Positions 16,729 to 57,960 of a stretch of DNA of 64,000 bases are shown piece by piece. The notes beneath the pieces were generated by a model that did not search any database, was not told where the DNA came from, and saw only the letters and a list, made by a program, of their open reading frames with translations. The stretch's first letter is position 1; the number at the start of each line of letters is the position of its first letter. The position numbers and the translations under genes were made by a program. Source of the stretch: Lutjanus erythropterus (taxonomy: Eukaryota; Chordata; Actinopteri; Lutjaniformes; Lutjanidae); the NCBI GenBank assembly GCA_020091685.1, contig CM034603.1, positions 8,476,683-8,540,682 on the forward strand. Direction: 5' to 3'.

Positions 16729-16977
16729 GGCAAGGTGATTGATTGAATAAACAGCTGTCAGTAGTTGGAGATAACCTCACTAGCATCACACCGCTGTCTT
16801 TCAGACAGACACACACGCGCGTGCAGGGTCCCAGGAGGAAAACCCACATTACACATGCTGACACACACTTGTAAACTGACGCACACACACACTCACAGGG
16901 ATCATCAGATGACCATCTATCAGTGTGTGTTCAAAACCAGGCAGCTGTGGATTTATGACTTGTTAATATATTGGTCC

Positions 16978-17395
16978 TTTGCTTTTGGTTTCCCAAATCC
17001 ACCAAATTCCATGTATATTTCTTTCGATTTTAGATTCTATGTAAGAGCTGTCCACTGACGCCAAAAAATAACACATGTACTAAGAGTCACAGTGTTCCCA
17101 TGTCACCAAAATGTTCTGATTTTGTAAAATACATGTATTCTCTGATTTACATTTCACTCTTTCTCAAAAGGCAACATGCATTTTGGTTTCTCAAATTCAC
17201 CAAATTTCATGTATATTTCTTTTGATTTTAGTTTTTCTTTAACAGCCTTGAAAATGCTGTCCACTGATGCCAAACCTTTTCCCAATGACAGAATGAAAGA
17301 ATATCCAACATGTAGTAACAGTCAGTGTTCCCATGTTGCCTGTCCATTTAAAATAAATGCATCTTCTGATTTAAATTTCACTCTTCCTCACAGTG
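16978..17395 (+). repeat. Diverged tandem duplication, unit about 200-220 bp
   Basis: Copy 1 starts at about 16978 and copy 2 at about 17178. Both read TTTTGGTTTC(C/T)CAAAT(C/T)CACCAAATT, then CATGTATATTTCTTT and TGCTGTCCACTGA(C/T)GCCAAA, then CAGTGTTCCCATGT and TTCTGATTT...ATTTCACTCTT. Neither copy looks coding. Confidence 0.8.
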
Positions 17396-17989: not shown

Positions 17990-18515
17990 ATTTGTGTTAA
18001 TATGGCCCCTGGTTTTGGGCTTTAGGGCTCATATTTGCCATTATGGAGATGATGGCTTTACTGGGGCCCCTCACCTCACCTTGCATTGGTCGGGGGAGAA
18101 GAGAGGGGAGAGTCAAAATGAAGGCTGACACCTCGGCGGGATTTATTTGATTGTGGATGCGAGGCGGTGTCATTCTGGGGAAGGGGTAGAATAAGGGGGG
18201 GATGAGATGCAAGGAGGAGGAGGCCCGGACCCTCGGGCTAAGTGAAAAGAAGAAGAGGAGACGACGGCAGGGTTGAAGGGAGAGGGGAAAGGGAGCGTAG
18301 GAGAGAGAAAGAAATAAAGGAAAGGAAAAGGAAGAGATTGAGGGGGAGCAGAAGTGGCCCCTCTTTCCCTTTCCGTGAATCAAATCAAATTCCCCTTATC
18401 GCACATTATTTGAAGAGGTTATCGGGCGCGGTAATGCGGTTACACGCCGGGCCGCGGCTGAGAGATTTCCTTGTTTACCGATGTTGGCGGGTGTTATAGC
18501 TAACCGGCCGGGTGA
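17990..18515. promoter_or_regulatory. Candidate conserved non-coding block, CpG-rich at its end
   Basis: Two unique segments, 17990-18190 and 18370-18515, flank a purine-rich filler. The second has unusual CpG density for an intron (GCGCGG, ACGCCGGGCCGCGG, AACCGGCCGG) and includes CCCTTATCGC and CCTTGTTTACCG (a forkhead-like core). No open frame or splice-bounded exon was found, so I read it as a regulatory candidate rather than an exon. Confidence 0.35.
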
Positions 18516-26916: not shown

Positions 26917-27046
26917 GTAAAAAGAAGATGTCCCTGTATGACAGCCAGGCTCCAATCTGTCCCATCTGCCAGGTGCTGCTCAGGCCTGGAGAGCTCCAGG
27001 AACACATGGAGACAGAGATTGAGAGGCTAGCTACCATATGCCTCAG
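26917..27046 (+). CDS. rnf220: rnf220 exon A: first zinc-binding motif of E3 ligase RNF220
   Basis: RNF220 is a RING-type E3 ubiquitin ligase acting in nucleus and cytoplasm; published roles include SIN3B turnover, beta-catenin stabilisation and, with ZC4H2, ventral neural patterning. This 130-bp exon has acceptor tcgtctccag and donor CAG|GTAGGC. It starts in phase 1 (one base comes from the previous exon), encodes KKKMSLYDSQAPICPICQVL and then LRPGELQEHMETEIERLATICL, and ends with two bases of a Ser codon. The stretch DSQAPICPICQVLLRP plus ELQEHM is identical to human RNF220 except for one residue. It provides a CPIC...H motif, probably zinc-binding. The upstream N-terminal exon is outside the window. 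The ATG at codon 4 of the exon is in frame but nothing marks it as a start. Confidence 0.96.
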
Positions 27047-28914
27047 GTAGGCCTTACACATGCAGTATGTTTCCTGCTCACGCATACACTCACGCACACA
27101 TCATGTACAGTAAGTTCAGTTAAATTGAGGTTGAAATAAAAAATGGCTCCAAAAATGTGTGACATAAAAACGACATAAAGAAGAAGACATGGCTGAACAG
27201 TTAGCTTGCGCAGGGGGTCTGTTAGCTTACACAGTAACAGCATGCAGCAAATTCCAACTTAAACAACAAAACGTAACTCTAAATGAAACCTAGCTGACTT
27301 TTGAATTAATTGCAGACTAGTTTGCTAGCTAGGCAGATAAAAAATGTAACTAGGAGTTTTTTAGTGGCTGAAAGGCTTGATTTTACTTTTGACAGACGCT
27401 AGCTCTCTTTTCCCTTGTTTTCAGTCTTTCTGCTAAGCTAAGCTTAACACACCGTCTAAATCATGTTCGCAGAGAAATCAAACTGGTAGCAGTCCTCTCC
27501 AAACTGTGAAACAGCAAATTTTCCAAAATGTACACAGAGGTATTTCTTTAATATCCCTCAAGGCTGGATGTCTCGAAAGTCTGATATATTCATTTAACAT
27601 ATAGCATCATTAGTTTGCACTCAAGTGACATTATCTAGATACTAATGGAGCAGAAAAGGTAAACAAAATTTTTAAGACAGATGCTCCACTGTCTCATAAA
27701 GAGGAATATTTTTTGGCACGGTGTGAAGGCTGAGCTTTAACTCAGCTATTATGTCAGCCTCACTGACTGCTATTCTGTGCGGGCACAGATTTTGGTGCCA
27801 TAAATCTGCATAAAAGGCAGAGGCATGCCGTCGACGTAACGCTAAGTGTTTCCTACAGGGATTAGGATTCAAACCTGTGACCTCAAGTTCACTGCCGCCC
27901 CCTTCTTCTCCTCATGGCAGTTGCACGAGCTGTTTTACGGTGGATAAATCAACTCCAAGCCCTTTTAACGATGGGACACAACCATTAGGATCCATATTTC
28001 ACCTTGACCGCACGTCTGGCTGTGTGTATGTGTGTGTGTGTGTTTGTGTACATAAGTGTTAGGCTGTGTTTGTGTGTGACCTGGTGTCCACCTAAGCGGC
28101 CCAGCTTTATGATAGCACCCATTAACCCGAAGGAACAGGGCAACAGATAGCGTCACCCCACGTGGAAATCATACTTCATTTACCCCCGTTTACACCTCTT
28201 ACACCCCTCCTCCTGTCTGTCTGTGTCTGTATACTGTACCAGTCCTCCTCATTCCTCCTTTCCCTCTCCATTTTTTGCCACAATCAGTCTGTTCTCCTCT
28301 TCTGCCTGCTTGTTCCCCTGTCCTTCTTTCCTCTCTAATCCTTTCTTTTCTATGCCACACTTCTGTCCTCTGCAGTCTTCCCTCTTCTCTTGTTCTTCTC
28401 TTCATAGTTATGCCAGGTTCCACCCCCAACTCTCTTTTCCTTCCATCTTCTCCTTGTCTTCTAACCCATTCTTGTCCCTTTTTTTTCATTTTATTTTACT
28501 ATCTTTAGAAATTGCAAGCCAGCATCAGACAAAAGCAGTGACCTGGGATAAACCCATTGTCCTCAGTGTGAGCCGGTCAACATGTTTATTTCTTCCTGGC
28601 TTTGTGAGGAGGAAGAAAATATGAAGAGACAGCAAGAGAGTTAGAGAGAAAGTTCATATGAGTAATGGAGAAAGATTATGTTTTTATGTGCCATTGAAGT
28701 CAGGGGACATAGTATATAGGGCAAGCAAGTCAGCTTATGGAGGAGGTGTGGTGGATATAGGCTATGGGTCAAGCAAATGCCGGATTTTCACCCAGGAGAC
28801 CAGGCTCTGTGTCCTGTGTGAAACCAACAGCCAAGTCATATAAGCCACTTGTCATATAAAGCAGGATTTGGCTGTACTCTTTAGAAAACTAAGTCAGAAA
28901 CCTTGAGTGGAAGC

Positions 28915-40885: not shown

Positions 40886-40981
40886 TCGATGCTGTTGTCG
40901 GTGCACATCAAGCGTGAGGGAGAGTCTCCTGTGGTCTCGCCCCTGTCCTCTGAAGACATCCACCACTCCGACAGATACCAG
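40886..40981 (+). CDS. rnf220: rnf220 exon C: IKREGES segment
   Basis: This is a 96-bp exon, phase 0 at both ends, with acceptor ctctctctttctacag. It encodes SMLLSVHIKREGESPVVSPL and SSEDIHHSDRYQ. Human RNF220 has SLLLSASIKREGESPTASPH...DLHHSDRYQ, so the identity is secure. IKREGESP resembles a sumoylation-type psi-K-x-E site (I-K-R-E) followed by phosphorylatable Ser-Pro; that reading is inference. The donor CAG|GTCACA is weak: it lacks the usual A/G at +3 and G at +5 and is followed at once by CA-rich sequence. A LINE fragment ends 23 bases upstream of the exon. Confidence 0.95.
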
Positions 40982-42620
40982 GTCACACTCACGGACACAC
41001 ACACACACAAACAAACACACACAAAATGGTTGAAAACAGTCAGTCAGTCAGTTTGCTCTCTTTTCAGTTATAGTCAGATTTATCCTGTATGTTCACAGCA
41101 TACAGAACTAAACAAAACAAAAGCATTGCAATCATCCATTTCAACTGGAGAATGTACACATTGTCAGGTATTATCACTTGCCAGCCAATCAGGGGCAAGA
41201 ATTTAGGAGTCTGTCATTTCAAAATGTTTTAAAAATATATGGCTTCCACACTCACACCAACAGGCTGATAGACTCTATGATGACGGGTAACTACTAACTC
41301 CACCTACAGTATGGAGAAAAAAATATGTGCAGCATGCTTTGTTAGTAGAGTTTATTGGCGAGCTACGTTTTATTATTCAGTGCTGTGGATTCTCATATGT
41401 GCTGATGGTGCTGGAGTTGACAACACACACATGATGCCCTCCTCTAATGTTATATTCTCATATCAGATAAGTTGAAAATGGAAAAGTAAGGCACATTCAC
41501 AGCACTGCAGCTTTTGAGCCGTATTACTGTGTAGCAAATCATGAGACCTCCGTAATGTATTGAATCAAATTGTGAATTTCTGTAATTATGACAGATGTAT
41601 AACAGCACAGCAGAGGATCATGGTAGATTTAGTTTTTTTTATGCCCTCTCAGCAGTTACGTTGACCAACAGGCCAATCTCCTTAAATCTCAGCTGTCTTT
41701 AAAGCCACCCTGACTGCTTTTATCTCTTAAATTCATCAAAGTTTGTTCGGGTAATTCTTCTGGCCATGATGTATCTCCGGGTTAAGTGGGTTTCCTCCCT
41801 TACACCATAAAATAAGAACTATTAAGTCCATGCAGACGTTACATCCATACGTTCAGGATGACACAGCTCATAAAGACCTTATAGCGATAAAGTAGATTTT
41901 CTCATTAAGTGAAACTGCTGAAATCACCTTATATTATACAAATGATTAAGTCAATGGTGACTCTTTTTACCACCCTGAAAATGAAGCATAATGGCAGACT
42001 TTGCCACCTTCTCCCTGCCTGTCAGCCCGTCTCAGTGCTCTTTCCCTCTTTACCTCTTCCCTTCCTCTAAAAACCTGACCTATCCGCAGCCATTCAGCGA
42101 GTGTATCATAATGATACGGTAGTAGTGGCGATGCGAGGCAAGTGGGCCTATAACTCAAGTGATGGCAGGGAGGGGAGGGGACAGAGGGAAGGAGTGAGGA
42201 TGTAGGGCGAGAACAGAAGGGGAAGGCCTGACTGCTTGTCGGCTCTCGCTGATGGACGATGGGCCGACGGTGAGAGGACGGAACCGCTGCCTACTCACTG
42301 TTGCCGTGTCAAAGAGAGGGCATCCATAACTGTGACTGGGGATGCTTTAGTCAGCATACAGCTAAAGATGTACAGGCCTCTGGGTTTGAATCCCACAGGA
42401 CCTTAGGTGCACATTCTGCAAGAGACAGAAGTGAGAGGACAAAGAAATCTGACCTCACTTAATTTATTTCTCAGTGCTATACTTTTAATGGTAAGATTCT
42501 CTGTATCATTAAGGTATTCTTAATGACACTGAGAATTCACCCCAGGCTGAACTACCCAAGACCCCAAATGTTCCACATTCATTTAGATAAATGTAGAATT
42601 TAATTGCATGCCACAGTTGC

Positions 42621-43159
42621 CAGTGGTGAAACCTAACAGACTACATTAACTCAAGTAGTGTACTTAAGTACAATTGTGAGGTTCTTTTACACACTTTATA
42701 CTTAGTATACTACAGATTTTACAAAGTAAAACATATGAAAAGATAAAAATATGTGTTACTAAACATTAAATCAGTTGTTCTCAACCTTTTTGGCCTGTGA
42801 CCCCTTACAAAAAAGGGAAGGGACCCCCTGTGACATTTGATCATTTGACATATGGTGAAATTCAAAAAGTAAAGATTATTTTAAAAAAAAGAATATGAAT
42901 GTGTGAATGTGAATAGGCATTTCTTTCTTTCTTACCATACAATTCATACATTCCATCATGTAAGAAATAAACAATTCAGCATACCTTTTCATATGGATTT
43001 TATGGAATATGGAGTTTTCATAGCCTATACTTTTGGATATTTTACATAATACCTCTGCAGGATTTTAAATGCAGGCCCTTTACTTGTAATGGAGAAAATT
43101 TACATTGTTGTGTTGGTACTCTTACTTAATTAAGGGTTTGAGTACTTCTTCCACTACTG
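42621..43159. mobile_element. hAT-type non-autonomous element with perfect 8-bp target duplication
   Basis: The left end is CAGTGGTGAAACC and the right end, read inward, is CAGTAGTGGAAGAAGTACTC. Identical 8-mers ACAGTTGC flank it at 42613-42620 and 43160-43167. Inside, at about 42773, CAGTTGTTCTCAACCTTTTTGG looks like the end of a second hAT-derived repeat nested within it. No transposase frame is present. Confidence 0.85.
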
Positions 43160-43667
43160 ACAGTTGCATAAAAAGAACTTAAGCTGTTTTTTTAACAGCT
43201 GCAAATCTGTAAATAATCTTCTGCACACAGAAAATGCTCTATAGACTTGATTTTCAATGCAGCCATATTGATATGAAATAGGGTAAACACAGGTGTTACC
43301 AATGATAATAATCAAGGTCCTGTTTGGTCCACTTTCCTCACTTAATTAGTATCACTGGAAATAGTGTTTATGTCACTATTTCATGTCAAAAGGGCTGCTA
43401 TGAACTGAGTCTGTACCTATGGAAACCACCAGAAACCAAGAACTTCACTTTAAGAGTAAAAAGTAGAGATGTAAAGTTCACAAACACCCTTAGTAACATC
43501 TTTGACAGACTTCACTGAGTAAAATCTTCTAAAACTTATTTTTAGTAATACCCTGCATAAACAGAGGTAGTTAGAGGAGCAGTACAGTGGCTGTGTGTCT
43601 AGTTTAGTCTGTTTGTACAACACTAGACCCCCTTATTAAAAAGGAGACCGTCTAATGAAACCCGCTG

Positions 43668-43942
43668 CTTCCCTCTAGCGGCCGACATCCCGAACAGCAC
43701 GTGACTTTTCCTCACTTCCGTCCCCAGCGCGTCACATGACCAAAACAAGCCAACATGGCGTCGGACATGAGTAGTTTTTGTCGATACGGGCGCCACTTTC
43801 AATCCTTTTCCATCCGTATTAAATAGCAGACAGAAGCTTCAGTTCGCGGTGATGTTTAGTATCTGGAGGCACAGCCGGACAGTTTACAGCAGTGAGTTTT
43901 GGCGGCTGTACTATGAGCTGTGAATGAACACTGCTGGCAGTC
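43668..43942 (+). promoter_or_regulatory. rnf220: Internal CpG-rich promoter and 5' leader of a short rnf220 transcript
   Basis: The 190 bases from 43670 hold roughly 15-20 CpGs by eye, against almost none in neighbouring intron. Promoter-type motifs are CACGTGAC (43698-43705), ACTTCCG (ETS type, 43714-43720), TCACATGAC (43732-43740) and CAACATGGCG (YY1 type, 43751-43760). YY1-type ATGGCG motifs usually sit just downstream of transcription starts, so I infer initiation near 43720-43755. The leader would carry a 23-codon upstream frame (43755-43826) and an in-frame stop (43925) before the start codon at 43943. It lies 145-450 bases upstream of exon D. Confidence 0.7.
43755..43826 (+). other. 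Upstream open reading frame in the alternative leader
   Basis: ATGGCGTCGGACATG opens a 23-codon frame (MASDMSSFCRYGRHFQSFSI, then RIK and stop TAG). Its ATG overlaps the YY1-type motif, so it is in the transcript only if initiation is upstream of 43755. It could reduce translation from 43943 if present; that is inference. Confidence 0.35.
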
Positions 43943-43969
43943 ATGGAGGAGGTGCAAAACAATCGACAA
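43943..43969 (+). CDS. rnf220: Alternative first coding exon of rnf220 (MEEVQNNRQ)
   Basis: ATG at 43943 has G at -3 and G at +4, the preferred initiation context. It opens nine codons, MEEVQNNRQ, ending exactly at the donor CAA|GTAGGT in phase 0. Exon D, 145 bases further on, also begins in phase 0, so splicing gives MEEVQNNRQ-TFLRVRANRQ. The nearest in-frame codon upstream that matters is a stop at 43925, so this ATG cannot be an extension of anything upstream. The product would be an N-terminally truncated RNF220 lacking the region before TFLRV and the CPIC motif of exon A, but keeping the second zinc finger and, if the rest is spliced in, the coiled coil and RING. I cannot confirm an annotated orthologue from memory. 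Confidence 0.65.
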
Positions 43970-44114
43970 GTAGGTTTGTTTACAGTGCAGACAAGCCTTC
44001 AGCATCCAAAGCAATCTCACTCTGAAAAGTTATATTTGTACTTGTAAACATATTATAATGTTTCTATATTATGTAATGTTTGTTTTACCCCTCTTCTTTC
44101 CCCTCTGCTTGCAG

Positions 44115-44157
44115 ACATTTTTACGAGTTCGAGCAAACAGGCAAACAAGATTGAATG
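44115..44157 (+). CDS. rnf220: rnf220 exon D: TFLRVRANRQ segment
   Basis: This is a 43-bp exon with a strong acceptor (ctttcccctctgcttgcag) and donor ATG|GTATGT. It encodes TFLRVRANRQTRLN plus the first base of an Ala codon. The 14 residues are identical to human RNF220 (about residues 277-290). The exon is entered from exon C in the full-length form and, in the predicted short form, from the alternative first exon at 43943-43969; both leave it in phase 0. Its basic character continues into exon E (ARIGKMKRRK), which could act in nuclear import or nucleic-acid contact; that is inference. Confidence 0.95.
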
Positions 44158-45939
44158 GTATGTACACATAACGTTTCATCTCCTGAGTGATATTTAATAA
44201 TGCTTATTAGTGTACAATGTAAGGCTCCAACGAATGCATTTCATTTAAATGTCCTTTATTATTATTTATTACTGTGTTCAAGCTTGTTAGTCTTGACATT
44301 TGGGGGAAAACATTATACAGATTGACCTAATTTCTATATTTATGTTTTTGGCTGAGATAACATATAATTAAGTGGAACATAAAATAGAATTTAAAATATG
44401 TTGCGTTATAGAAAAATTAGATATTATACATGCAGCAGTAAATTTCCATATGCTAACAATGAAATGACTACAGATATGAATGATGAAATGAAAAGAATAT
44501 CGTCACATGACTAATAATGTCACCAGTATCAAGATACAGGTGAGAAAATAGTTTTGCTGTGCAATGTGTCAATGTGATGGTCATCTATTTATTACCTGAT
44601 GTCATTTCTGAAACATGTGTGTTTTGATGGAGTATATTTTATGACTGTACATTTGCTGGAGTGTTGCTGATGTCATGTGACAGACACCTGTGGCTCCTAC
44701 AGAGCGTTTTTGTTCTGTCAGTCTGAAGAAGAGCAATGTGACTGAAACTTAATTTATGGTGATAACAAATATTTTGAGTGTTCAGTGTGAGGCTGTTTGA
44801 CATTGTGCATTTCATATGTTTTGTTTTTTATATTTATATATAAAAAAAACACCCTATTGCATAGCTCAAGCACATCTTGTGTTTACCATGACATTGGAGT
44901 AACAGAGCTAACTGTGTTTTCTGTAAAATAAATTCCTAAGCAATCTTTCAAAAACCCAGATGACTGGTAAACAGCACTTATTGCTTGTTATGAAGGTATT
45001 TTCAGAATCCTCAGACTTTTTCAACCATCTGCATATAAAAAAATTCCAGCAGTTACACAAGCAAAAAAGATTTTTACCCAGTTTCCCAAGTGGCATCTGC
45101 ATCAACTAAGGTAAAAAGAAATTCTCTTTTGCCTCTTTTTGTAAAACATGAGCAAAATACATTAAACCAATGAACTTAATTACTATCTAATGTTCTTCTA
45201 ATTGTACAAATTGAGCATGAATGTTTGACTATTCTTGCATCTTTGTTTGGATATGTAAAAAAAGGCACAGTTTGGGAAACAGGTTAAATGTCTTGTGTTA
45301 TTGGACAGAGTAGATATTTTCCAACCTGATAGTTAGAAGAGTCTGAGAATTCTGGAATTAAACTCAACAGCAGTAGGGGTTGTTAAACTGCATGTAGGGT
45401 TTATTTTTGAGAAAATGGATTCTTATCTTAGTGACTCAAATGTAATCTTATAATATTTGGCAAAAATGGGGCTAAGCTCTGAGAAAAGGCTTATGAGCTT
45501 TTAGCTAGCTTTCTTGGTCAGCAAATACCAGGGCTAACTTGAGGAATACCTTGAGTTACACCACAGTTCACACACCAGTTTTTAATGCAGGATTTGGTCA
45601 CTGGACATGGGCATTGTTGTGGACTTCATAAATGGTGGCACTATAAGAGAATATATTCCTGTTAGCACTTTGTATTTACCAACATCAGAAGATGCCCACT
45701 CTTCGTGACTGCAAAGTTTGTCAAGACAAGAAATGTCTTGTGTTTTCATGAGCCTGCATCCACAGTACTGAATTTCTAGGATGGTCCTCAGGCTGAACAG
45801 AGATCAGAAGTGCTGCCACAATGAAAGCTCATGATATTAAACGCAAATATCAGTTGACAGTGCTGTTTTTTTAATTAAGCTGTATGATTTCAGCTTTTGT
45901 CAGTCACCCCTGTCGACCTATACTGAAAATATTATTGGG

Positions 45940-46260
45940 CTGCAACTAATAATTTGTTTAATTGTCAATTATTTCTAAAATGTGCATCATTTTTTTGATT
46001 TATCACATAGTTGTTTGGTCCAGAAAATGGTGACAAATGTTGCTCAGTGGTTCCCAAAGTCCAAGGTCATGTCATCAAATGTCTTATTATGTGAAGATGT
46101 GAAGCTTATTGTCATGGAGGAGTAAAGAAACCAGAAAAAAATCACATCTTGACATTTCTTCTTAAAAAATATTTAAAATGGTTCATCATTTATCAAAATA
46201 GTTTCTCATTAATTTAATAATTAACAACAAATTGACTTATCTCTGCAACTCTAAAATACT
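45940..46260 (-). repeat. Teleost ATTAATCGATTA-type interspersed repeat (reverse)
   Basis: ATTGGGCTGCAACTAATAATTTG at the left and ACTTATCTCTGCAACTCTAAA at the right, with AAATGTCTTATTATGTGAAG inside, match the family seen at 8398-8725. The ends are inverted around a diverged interior. Confidence 0.65.
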
Positions 46261-46589
46261 CATCCTTTTTAAGGGATACTGAAATGTTGTAAACCAAGAA
46301 ATGCTAATAAAGTCAATATTTTTGTATCTGTAACAGCTGACTCTTACCACTTTTAGTGTTGTCTCAATTGTGACACATTTATTGTGTCCAGTCTTGAGGC
46401 GACACTTGGATAACTCAGCCTTTTTCAGTCAGAGCCCATGACAAGACCCAATGAAGACTTAGTTTAAACTTCGCCCTCCATTACTTTCCTCCTGCCCTCA
46501 TGTGGAACCAGGACTCATTCTCATGTGGGGTATAACAGCTGAGGGGGGGCAGAGATCCCTGCCGGACCTAATTAGCAGCCCCTTCCCTT

Positions 46590-46895
46590 CTCTATTTAAC
46601 AACGCTCCCCTCGATTAGCGTCAGGGGGGAATTGGCGAGGAGGAGGAGGAGGCCGTTTCTCTCTTTAACCCTCCCAGCCTCGCTCCCTCCCATCATCTTC
46701 CCCTGCAGTTACGGCGTATAGCCTTATGTCCTCCTCCACCTCCTCTCCCTCCATCCCTTGCCACGGTCCCTCTTGGCCCCCTCTGCTTTCCCAGCCAGCT
46801 AAAAATTAATGTCCCCGCGCGCCATTTGCAGTTAAGAAAAAACGACAGAGACTCGGGGCGCGATGACGGCTGTTCTGCTCTGTTAAATTTCTAAT
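46590..46895. promoter_or_regulatory. Candidate conserved non-coding element
   Basis: GC-rich unique sequence (CTCGATTAGCGTCAGGGGGG, GTTACGGCGTATAGCC, CCGCGCGCCATTTGC, GACTCGGGGCGCGATGACGG) ends in TTTCTAATTAAAT just before a GT run. Several CpGs and homeodomain cores stand out from the AT-rich intron around it. Function is inferred from composition. Confidence 0.3.
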
Positions 46896-46898
46896 TAA

Positions 46899-46900
<2 letters not shown>

Positions 46901-46957
<57 letters not shown>
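46901..46957 (+). repeat. (GT)n microsatellite
   Basis: About 28 uninterrupted GT units. Confidence 0.98.
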
Positions 46958-46958
<1 letters not shown>

Positions 46959-47297
46959 AGGGGAGCTGTGACAGGAGGGCAGGGGAGGGAAGGGAGGAGA
47001 AACAGAGGGAGAGAAATGGCCTGAATGGGTGTAGAAAGGGGATTGAGATTGTCACGTCCGGCAGTGTCTTGTCATTTCTCTCCTGACACATTTCAGAAGT
47101 TTAGCCAGCTCAGCCTCCTCTCACATGCTTCTAGGCCTGTAAAGTATTTAGCTCTATTACACACTGAATATGATCCAATCAGAGAAGATTCATCTGACAA
47201 ATGTTCCTCCTTGAAACCAGTGATATCATCGTCCAACGCAGACAATGACTTTAATCATTTCTCTCTTTCTGTCTTTCTCTTTTCCATCCGTCTCCAG

Positions 47298-47422
47298 CCC
47301 GTATAGGGAAGATGAAGAGGAGGAAGCCTGAGGAGGGGGGCCAGGTATGTCCGCTGTGCAGCGCCCCATTGGCTGGGAGCGAGGAGGAGATGAGTAGACA
47401 TGTGGAACAATGCCTGATCCAG
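47298..47422 (+). CDS. rnf220: rnf220 exon E: C2HC zinc finger
   Basis: This is a 125-bp exon with acceptor ctttttccatccgtctccag type and donor CAG|GTAGTA. After completing an Ala codon it encodes RIGKMKRRKPEEGGQ, then VCPLCSAPLAGSEEEMSRHV and EQCLIQ, and ends in phase 0. C-P-L-C and H-x3-C form a C2HC zinc finger; human RNF220 has GQVCPLCNRPLAGSEQEMSRHVEHCLSK, so the finger is well conserved. Inside the exon, CAG|GTATGT at 47342-47350 is a strong donor also in phase 0. Its use (exon 47298-47344) removes 78 bp, exactly the 26 residues from VCPLC to LIQ, and joins GGQ to REG of exon F. Confidence 0.95.
47345..47350 (+). promoter_or_regulatory. rnf220: Alternative 5' splice site inside exon E
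   Basis: GTATGT preceded by CAG fits the donor consensus better than the downstream donor CAG|GTAGTA. Both are phase 0. Use of this site gives KRRKPEEGGQ-REGALGDDD, an RNF220 form without its C2HC finger. Confidence 0.6.
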
Positions 47423-49038: not shown

Positions 49039-49168
49039 CGTGAGGGTGCGTTAGGCGATGACGACTCTGCAGACATGGATGGAGAGAATGGGCGGGGCTT
49101 TGAGGAGTACGAGTGGGCGGGGCAGAAGAGGATCAGAGCCACAGCTTTGCTGGAGGGAGGCTTCAGAG
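49039..49168 (+). CDS. rnf220: rnf220 exon F: FEEYEW / KRIRATALLEGGFR segment
   Basis: This is a 130-bp exon beginning in phase 0 and ending one base into a Gly codon (donor GAG|GTACAA). It encodes REGALGDDDSADMDGENGRG and FEEYEWAGQKRIRATALLEG, then GFR. The FEEYEW, GQKRIRAT and LLEGGFR blocks match human RNF220 almost exactly; the acidic leader differs. The two arginines of KRIR (codons 49129-49131 and 49135-49137) correspond to human Arg363 and Arg365, whose Gln substitutions I recall from a recessive leukodystrophy; counting back from the 566-residue human C-terminus places the second Arg at 365. The acceptor tract is UG-rich and the donor is followed within 20 bases by a 60-base CA repeat. 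Confidence 0.95.
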
Positions 49169-49185
49169 GTACAAACACACCCCCT

Positions 49186-57450: not shown

Positions 57451-57642
57451 AATAAGTGGTGAGGCCAAGGGTTGTTTTGTGATTGTATGTCAGAACAGTC
57501 CATTGAGGGTTCCAAATATCACTATGCCATTAGCAGATCTTACTCTCTACACACAAAATCCAACGTTCTCTTATTCCTTGTGTCGCACTTAGTACTTAAA
57601 ATAATAGTTATGCTAAAAATGGTCTGTCTGTTATTTTCACAG

Positions 57643-57835
57643 GAACAGGTTTTGCCACGTGTAGCATTAAGGAGAGCGCAGCAGACAGTGACGCTGACCT
57701 TGACGTGGACGGAGATGACACCTTGGAGTACGGCAAGGCCCAGTACACTGAGGCCGATATCATCCCCTGCTCCGGAGCTGGAGAGGACCAAGGAGAGGCC
57801 AGGGAGAGGGAGGCGCTACGGGGAGCCGTGCTCAA
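57643..57835 (+). CDS. rnf220: rnf220 exon G: DSDADLDVDGDDTLEYGK segment
   Basis: This is a 193-bp exon with acceptor ctgttattttcacag and donor CAA|GTATGA. It completes Gly, then encodes TGFATCSIKESAADSDADLD, VDGDDTLEYGKAQYTEADII, PCSGAGEDQGEAREREALRG and AVL plus two bases of an Asn codon. Human RNF220 has GSGFIMCSGKENPDSDADLDVDGDDTLEYGKPQYTEADVIPCTG..., so this strongly acidic DSDADLDVDGDD block and the YTEAD motif are conserved. No enzymatic domain lies here; it is the linker before the coiled coil and RING. A second AG at 57648 could serve as an acceptor two codons downstream but would remove residues conserved with human. Confidence 0.96.
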
Positions 57836-57960
57836 GTATGAAGCCTTAAACACTACATAGTCAAACTAGCACAAGACAAACTTGCATTAACTACTGTAAG
57901 TGAAATGGTATGCATCCCTAAGGCTCTGTTCATCCCAATGTTTGTGTGTTTGTGTCGCAG
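57836..57960 (+). other. rnf220: rnf220 intron G-H (125 bp)
   Basis: A short GT-AG intron ending TGTTTGTGTGTTTGTGTCGCAG, with a UG-rich rather than C-rich acceptor tract. Confidence 0.95.

Follow-up and report, generated by a model that had tools for sequence, protein, structure and literature searches.

A candidate internal CpG-type promoter in a fish rnf220 gene and a predicted short form of RNF220

The intron between exons C and D of the rnf220 gene on C13 contains a short CpG-dense block, likely a promoter or promoter-like element, followed by an open coding segment whose splice donor is in phase with exon D. The best explanation we can offer, and one we hold at about even confidence, is that a CpG promoter at this position yields a 5'-truncated rnf220 mRNA and, from it, a short RNF220. 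The block would act as a CpG-type promoter within C13 rnf220, firing on the + strand, and a short first exon would be spliced via its GTAGGT donor to exon D to give the truncated message, on which an ATG at 43943 would be reached by leaky scanning, or by transcription starting downstream of 43755. If this ATG is used, the product would be a ligase of 288 aa (314 aa with the long form of exon E) that has lost its N-terminal region together with the first zinc motif and the Ser-Pro pair of exon C, but retains the lysines and the RING; the predicted effect is an active RNF220 of longer life. The sequence features, the open frame and the exon content are read directly from the DNA, and from them we infer promoter activity and splicing, as well as translation, ligase activity and stability of the short form. 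We put the existence of a 5'-truncated rnf220 transcript at about even or a little better, and regard a MEEVQ protein made in useful amount as rather doubtful, if far from negligible. An alternative promoter is plausible; its protein product is putative.

The window, by which we mean the whole 64-kb stretch analysed (C13:8476683-8540682), carries rnf220 exons. An earlier note, made from the sequence, had named the gene as RNF220, and this is borne out by PF15926 matches in the spliced model and at window positions 26937-27092, 49048-49176 and 57624-57839; two more matches, on C7, mark a second copy. Exon 2, the first large coding exon, is open at C13 8368714-8369343 (sharing 86% identity with a human N-terminal sequence), ~151 kb upstream of the block, and so the C13 gene can still encode the full-length protein. 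The reading is open from exon 3 through the stop, with the last coding exon past the window end, and the full-length model, with a presumed exon 2-3 junction, comes to 590 aa when exon E takes its short form. Gene structure and protein thus agree with known RNF220 (PF15926) from exon 2 to the RING. The known full-length form uses exon 2; those portions of the RNF220 literature available to us mention no internal start. The exons referred to below are:

26917..27046, + strand: exon 3, with the first CPIC...H zinc motif (profile match, gene model)
40886..40981, + strand: exon C of full-length rnf220, 96 nt, phase 0-0, holding ESPVVSP (gene model)
44115..44157, + strand: exon D, TFLRVRANRQTRLN (gene model; conserved in the C7 paralog)
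47298..47422, + strand: exon E, with GKMKRRK (alternative donors at 47345 and 47423)

The two donors of exon E are 78 nt apart, the long form adding 26 residues (47345-47422) that include a second zinc-type motif, VCPLC...H...C. For human RNF220, isoforms between 566 and 592 residues long are reported, the accessible part of the source naming no short one (PMC12611666), and this difference of 26 residues equals the exon E extension; the human isoforms would then reflect donor choice at exon E, not a promoter. A long TG repeat occupies window positions 46900-46957, in the intron upstream of exon E.

The CpG-dense block described in the earlier note is present at 43668-43969, where 18 CpG occur in 302 bp (obs/exp 0.93, against 0.35 for the whole 64-kb window). 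The best four 250-bp windows of the block hold 17 CpG each, at obs/exp 1.07-1.17, and CpG/(TpG+CpA) is 0.38 in the block versus 0.07 in the remainder of intron C-D. Such preservation of CpG in a CpG-poor genome (obs/exp 0.37 in a 200-kb sample) suggests that the block is unmethylated in the germ line. The host intron had been called AT-rich, which holds for most of its length but not at 42000-42499, where GC is 0.51; at 42777-42806 it carries gttctcaacctttttggcctgtgacccctt, which we take to resemble a hAT-type interspersed repeat. When blocks were defined by at least 17 CpG per 250 bp and obs/exp of at least 1, in 10-bp steps, the 200 kb of genome sampled (20 stretches of 10 kb) contained three after merging, the window two including the candidate, five stretches of C7 one, and two stretches of C13 downstream none; the candidate's density is thus far above the genome background, as for a CpG-type promoter. 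One of the three sampled blocks overlaps an open zinc-finger ORF of 365 aa, presumably TFIIIA-like, at its 5' end, and serves as a partial positive control, the block being partly coding. A 511-bp query including the candidate block matched itself alone in the 938-Mb genome, with no second copy, leaving a repeat or retrocopy origin unsupported, although the search skips very common words and so does not strictly exclude a high-copy repeat. According to the accessible text of PMC3583005, CpG islands called by computation in cold-blooded vertebrates are often found outside promoters; measured non-methylated islands in zebrafish overlap 55% of TSSs, and some such islands are enhancers or lncRNA starts. 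Like the islands at fish promoters, the present block is a short CpG-dense stretch in a CpG-poor genome; it is recognised here by its CpG content, whereas they are recognised by methylation.

The E-box, ETS and YY1-type motifs that the earlier note placed in the block were all recovered, and the names attached to them here (USF, ETS/GABP, TFE/MITF, YY1) are our own presumptive labels:

43660..43900, + strand: promoter-like CpG-dense core (17 CpG, obs/exp 1.08)
43698..43705, + strand: CACGTGAC, USF-type E-box
43713..43720, - strand: ETS/GABP-type site, CACTTCCG at 43713 reading CGGAAGTG on the opposite strand
43732..43740, + strand: TCACATGAC, TFE/MITF-like E-box
43751..43759, + strand: CAACATGGC, YY1-type site enclosing a strong-context ATG
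43755..43826, + strand: possible upstream ORF MASDMSSFCRYGRHFQSFSIRIK, 23 codons, end including the stop, strong start context
43943..43969, + strand: proposed alternative first coding segment MEEVQNNRQ, with phase-0 donor GTAGGT (score 2.90)
43970..44114, + strand: proposed 145-nt intron, with the normal exon D acceptor at its end

The combination of USF, ETS and YY1 sites is a usual one in core promoters. With a motif list compiled after the block had been read, three kinds of core-promoter motif come together in a 250-bp span twice in 334 kb, in the block itself and at position 962 of sampled stretch L027, which adjoins another of the sampled CpG blocks.

The proposed start, ATG 43943-43945 in GCAGTCATGG, has G at both -3 and +4, a strong context that falls short of the full consensus. 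As the earlier note had it, an in-frame stop (TGA at 43925) lies upstream, a phase-0 GTAGGT donor follows position 43969 at 145 bp ahead of exon D, and exon D itself begins in phase 0; all are read directly. The candidate donor scores 2.90 against 2.98 for the donor of exon D, and ranks above five of the remaining twelve in C13 (one scoring table applied to 13 donors, that of exon 2 left out). Counting as strict pairs those ATGs that have a purine at -3, G at +4 and an open frame to a phase-0 donor of at least the candidate's score within 150 nt, a threshold set by the candidate itself, we found 22 in 400,000 strand-nt, or 0.0165 per 300 nt; requiring the purine at -3 alone raises the background to 0.072 per 300 nt. 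The candidate is the sole strict pair in the 3.1-kb intron C-D. Since these thresholds and the motif list were chosen after the candidate, the chance frequencies are guides and not p-values. From 43650 up to the proposed start there are seven ATGs to which the earlier note does not refer (43655, 43736, 43755, 43767, 43852, 43913 and 43924). In the putative transcript the MEEVQ start, open in frame and strong in context, would thus be preceded by others and have no clear advantage of position over them.

Joined to exon D, the frame stays open to the RING. The 314-aa model matches PF15926 (E 4.6e-53, profile 81-248 of 249) and a RING (E 5.8e-15), and hence combines the PF15926 domain with the C-terminal C3HC4 RING that define the RNF220 family. 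Exons 2, 3, B and C are missing from the short form. As the earlier note predicted, it loses the N-terminal region and, with it, the first CPIC...H motif, both of which the full-length gene has. Among solved structures six sequences matched, all over the RING (RNF4, RING2, TRIM21), with no RNF220 chain among them. That the short form competes with the full form for partners, as had also been proposed, is a guess; a sharper prediction is that the short form no longer docks Smurf1/2 but retains its RING.

According to the accessible text of PMC10400574, RNF220 protein is lowered by Smurf1/2-driven ubiquitination and degradation; in mouse, the docking sites for Smurf1/2 are pS282-P and pS286-P, and lysines 321, 323 and 326, which control stability, are reported ubiquitin acceptors. 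In the full-length fish model ESPVVSP in exon C supplies S293 and S297, and GKMKRRK in exon E supplies K330, K332 and K335; the comparison was made with the mouse residue numbers of that paper, and spacing is equal within each group, the two offsets differing by 2. Because exon C is skipped in the short form, the presumed docking pair would be lost, and the presumed target lysines and the RING kept. The short form could therefore be a Smurf-resistant ligase, and is predicted to be more stable. The presumed docking pair varies between the copies: on C7 its Ser-Pro motifs (SPTSP) lie 3 residues apart instead of 4. Promoters of this kind are well known, and the interesting part is the gene-specific loss of presumed Smurf docking. 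If the reading is true, the RNF220 level would be decoupled from Smurf1/2 control by a promoter yielding a form without the docking site, and the short form would allow the role of the N-terminal half of RNF220 to be tested simply; if the block is merely an enhancer, the case is ordinary.

Several other explanations bear on the same features. The promoter may be real and its transcript may join exon D, yet the product may not be MEEVQ, upstream ORFs capturing the ribosomes; the RNA would then be poorly translated, decay, or be translated from a later start, for example the exon E methionine within GKMKRRK. We think this unlikely on balance, although a genuine contender. The strong-context ATG at 43755, in GCCAACATGG and inside the YY1 motif, opens 23 codons, that at 43852 another 23 and that at 43913 four, and ATG 43924 reads out of frame across the proposed start; against this, transcription may begin downstream of 43755, and 43943 has its G at -3 and +4 with an in-frame stop ahead. 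It is also rather unlikely that the block is an intronic enhancer or a non-methylated island without a stable sense transcript. In the available text of PMC3583005 a further 40% of zebrafish intergenic (not intronic) non-methylated islands match H3K4me1 once ncRNA starts are set aside, but the motif combination seen here is one of core promoters, its three types cluster at just two places in 334 kb, and an ATG-donor pair lies immediately downstream of the block.

It seems to us very unlikely that the block drives an antisense or non-coding RNA, or transcription in both directions, unrelated to the rnf220 protein, even though 45-64% of known mouse and zebrafish lncRNA starts are associated with non-methylated islands (PMC3583005, accessible text). 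A + strand transcript from the block reaches the exon D acceptor within 145 nt, and the interval from 41044 to 47257 holds none of the stop-free stretches listed for the minus strand, the 20 longest, a result that is silent on non-coding RNA. Least credible of all is chance, a CpG-rich remnant beside a fortuitous ATG-donor pair: the thresholds are post hoc and the C7 paralog has no block, but CpG blocks, ATG-donor pairs and motif clusters are all of low background, and CpG has been kept here in a genome with an obs/exp of 0.37.

The host genome is, by our reading, that of a teleost, and the C7 copy probably a duplication paralog; its exon 2 was matched at 74% identity to the same human N-terminal sequence. 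The C7 intron C-D (1.7 kb) has no CpG block, peaking at 9 CpG per 250 bp in 100-bp steps, and no strict ATG-donor pair; relaxed pairs with a donor score of at least 0 number four there and two in the C13 intron. A homologous block in the C7 intron was rejected (Smith-Waterman score 13, shuffle mean 11.7, 41 of 200 shuffles reaching 13). Neither block nor alternative first exon is thus conserved in the same-genome paralog. In C7 exon E the frame past the short donor meets a stop after three codons. It is conceivable, if improbable, that an internal promoter of housekeeping type arose in one rnf220 copy and gives a Smurf-resistant short ligase, the two copies splitting regulated from constitutive RNF220. 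Pointing that way, the exon C donor of C13 (CAG/GTCACA, window 40981) scores -0.49, the weakest of the 13 scored, against 8.68 for its C7 counterpart (CAG/GTGAGT), and exon C, at 96 nt and phase 0-0, can be skipped in frame. The weak donor is less of a clue than it seems, that of exon F being nearly as weak (-0.25).

Databases appear to list N-truncated mammalian RNF220 isoforms. No report of an internal RNF220 promoter was found in the openly available literature searched, and the accessible main text of PMC6349408 gave no RNF220 match. Zebrafish titin and N-terminal p53 isoforms, as presented in the available text of PMC4720518 and PMC2958959, share with our candidate an internal promoter, a shorter product and common C-terminal exons; those cases come from experiments, the rnf220 candidate from sequence. 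Pattern scans for exon D in viral and prokaryote collections (viral_contigs, genome_contigs) returned 0 matches.

A CpG block near position 17,000 of the reverse-complemented C7 stretch (c7rc) was considered as a displaced copy of the candidate and rejected, as it adjoins a stretch aligning instead with the window's second CpG block, at 18261-18511. Within the latter, 106 nt (18378-18483) align with intron sequence upstream of C7 exon 3 (c7rc 16825-16931); the alignment has 72 identities over 107 positions, with E 6e-10 for a 2.2-kb target, and marks a candidate conserved noncoding element.
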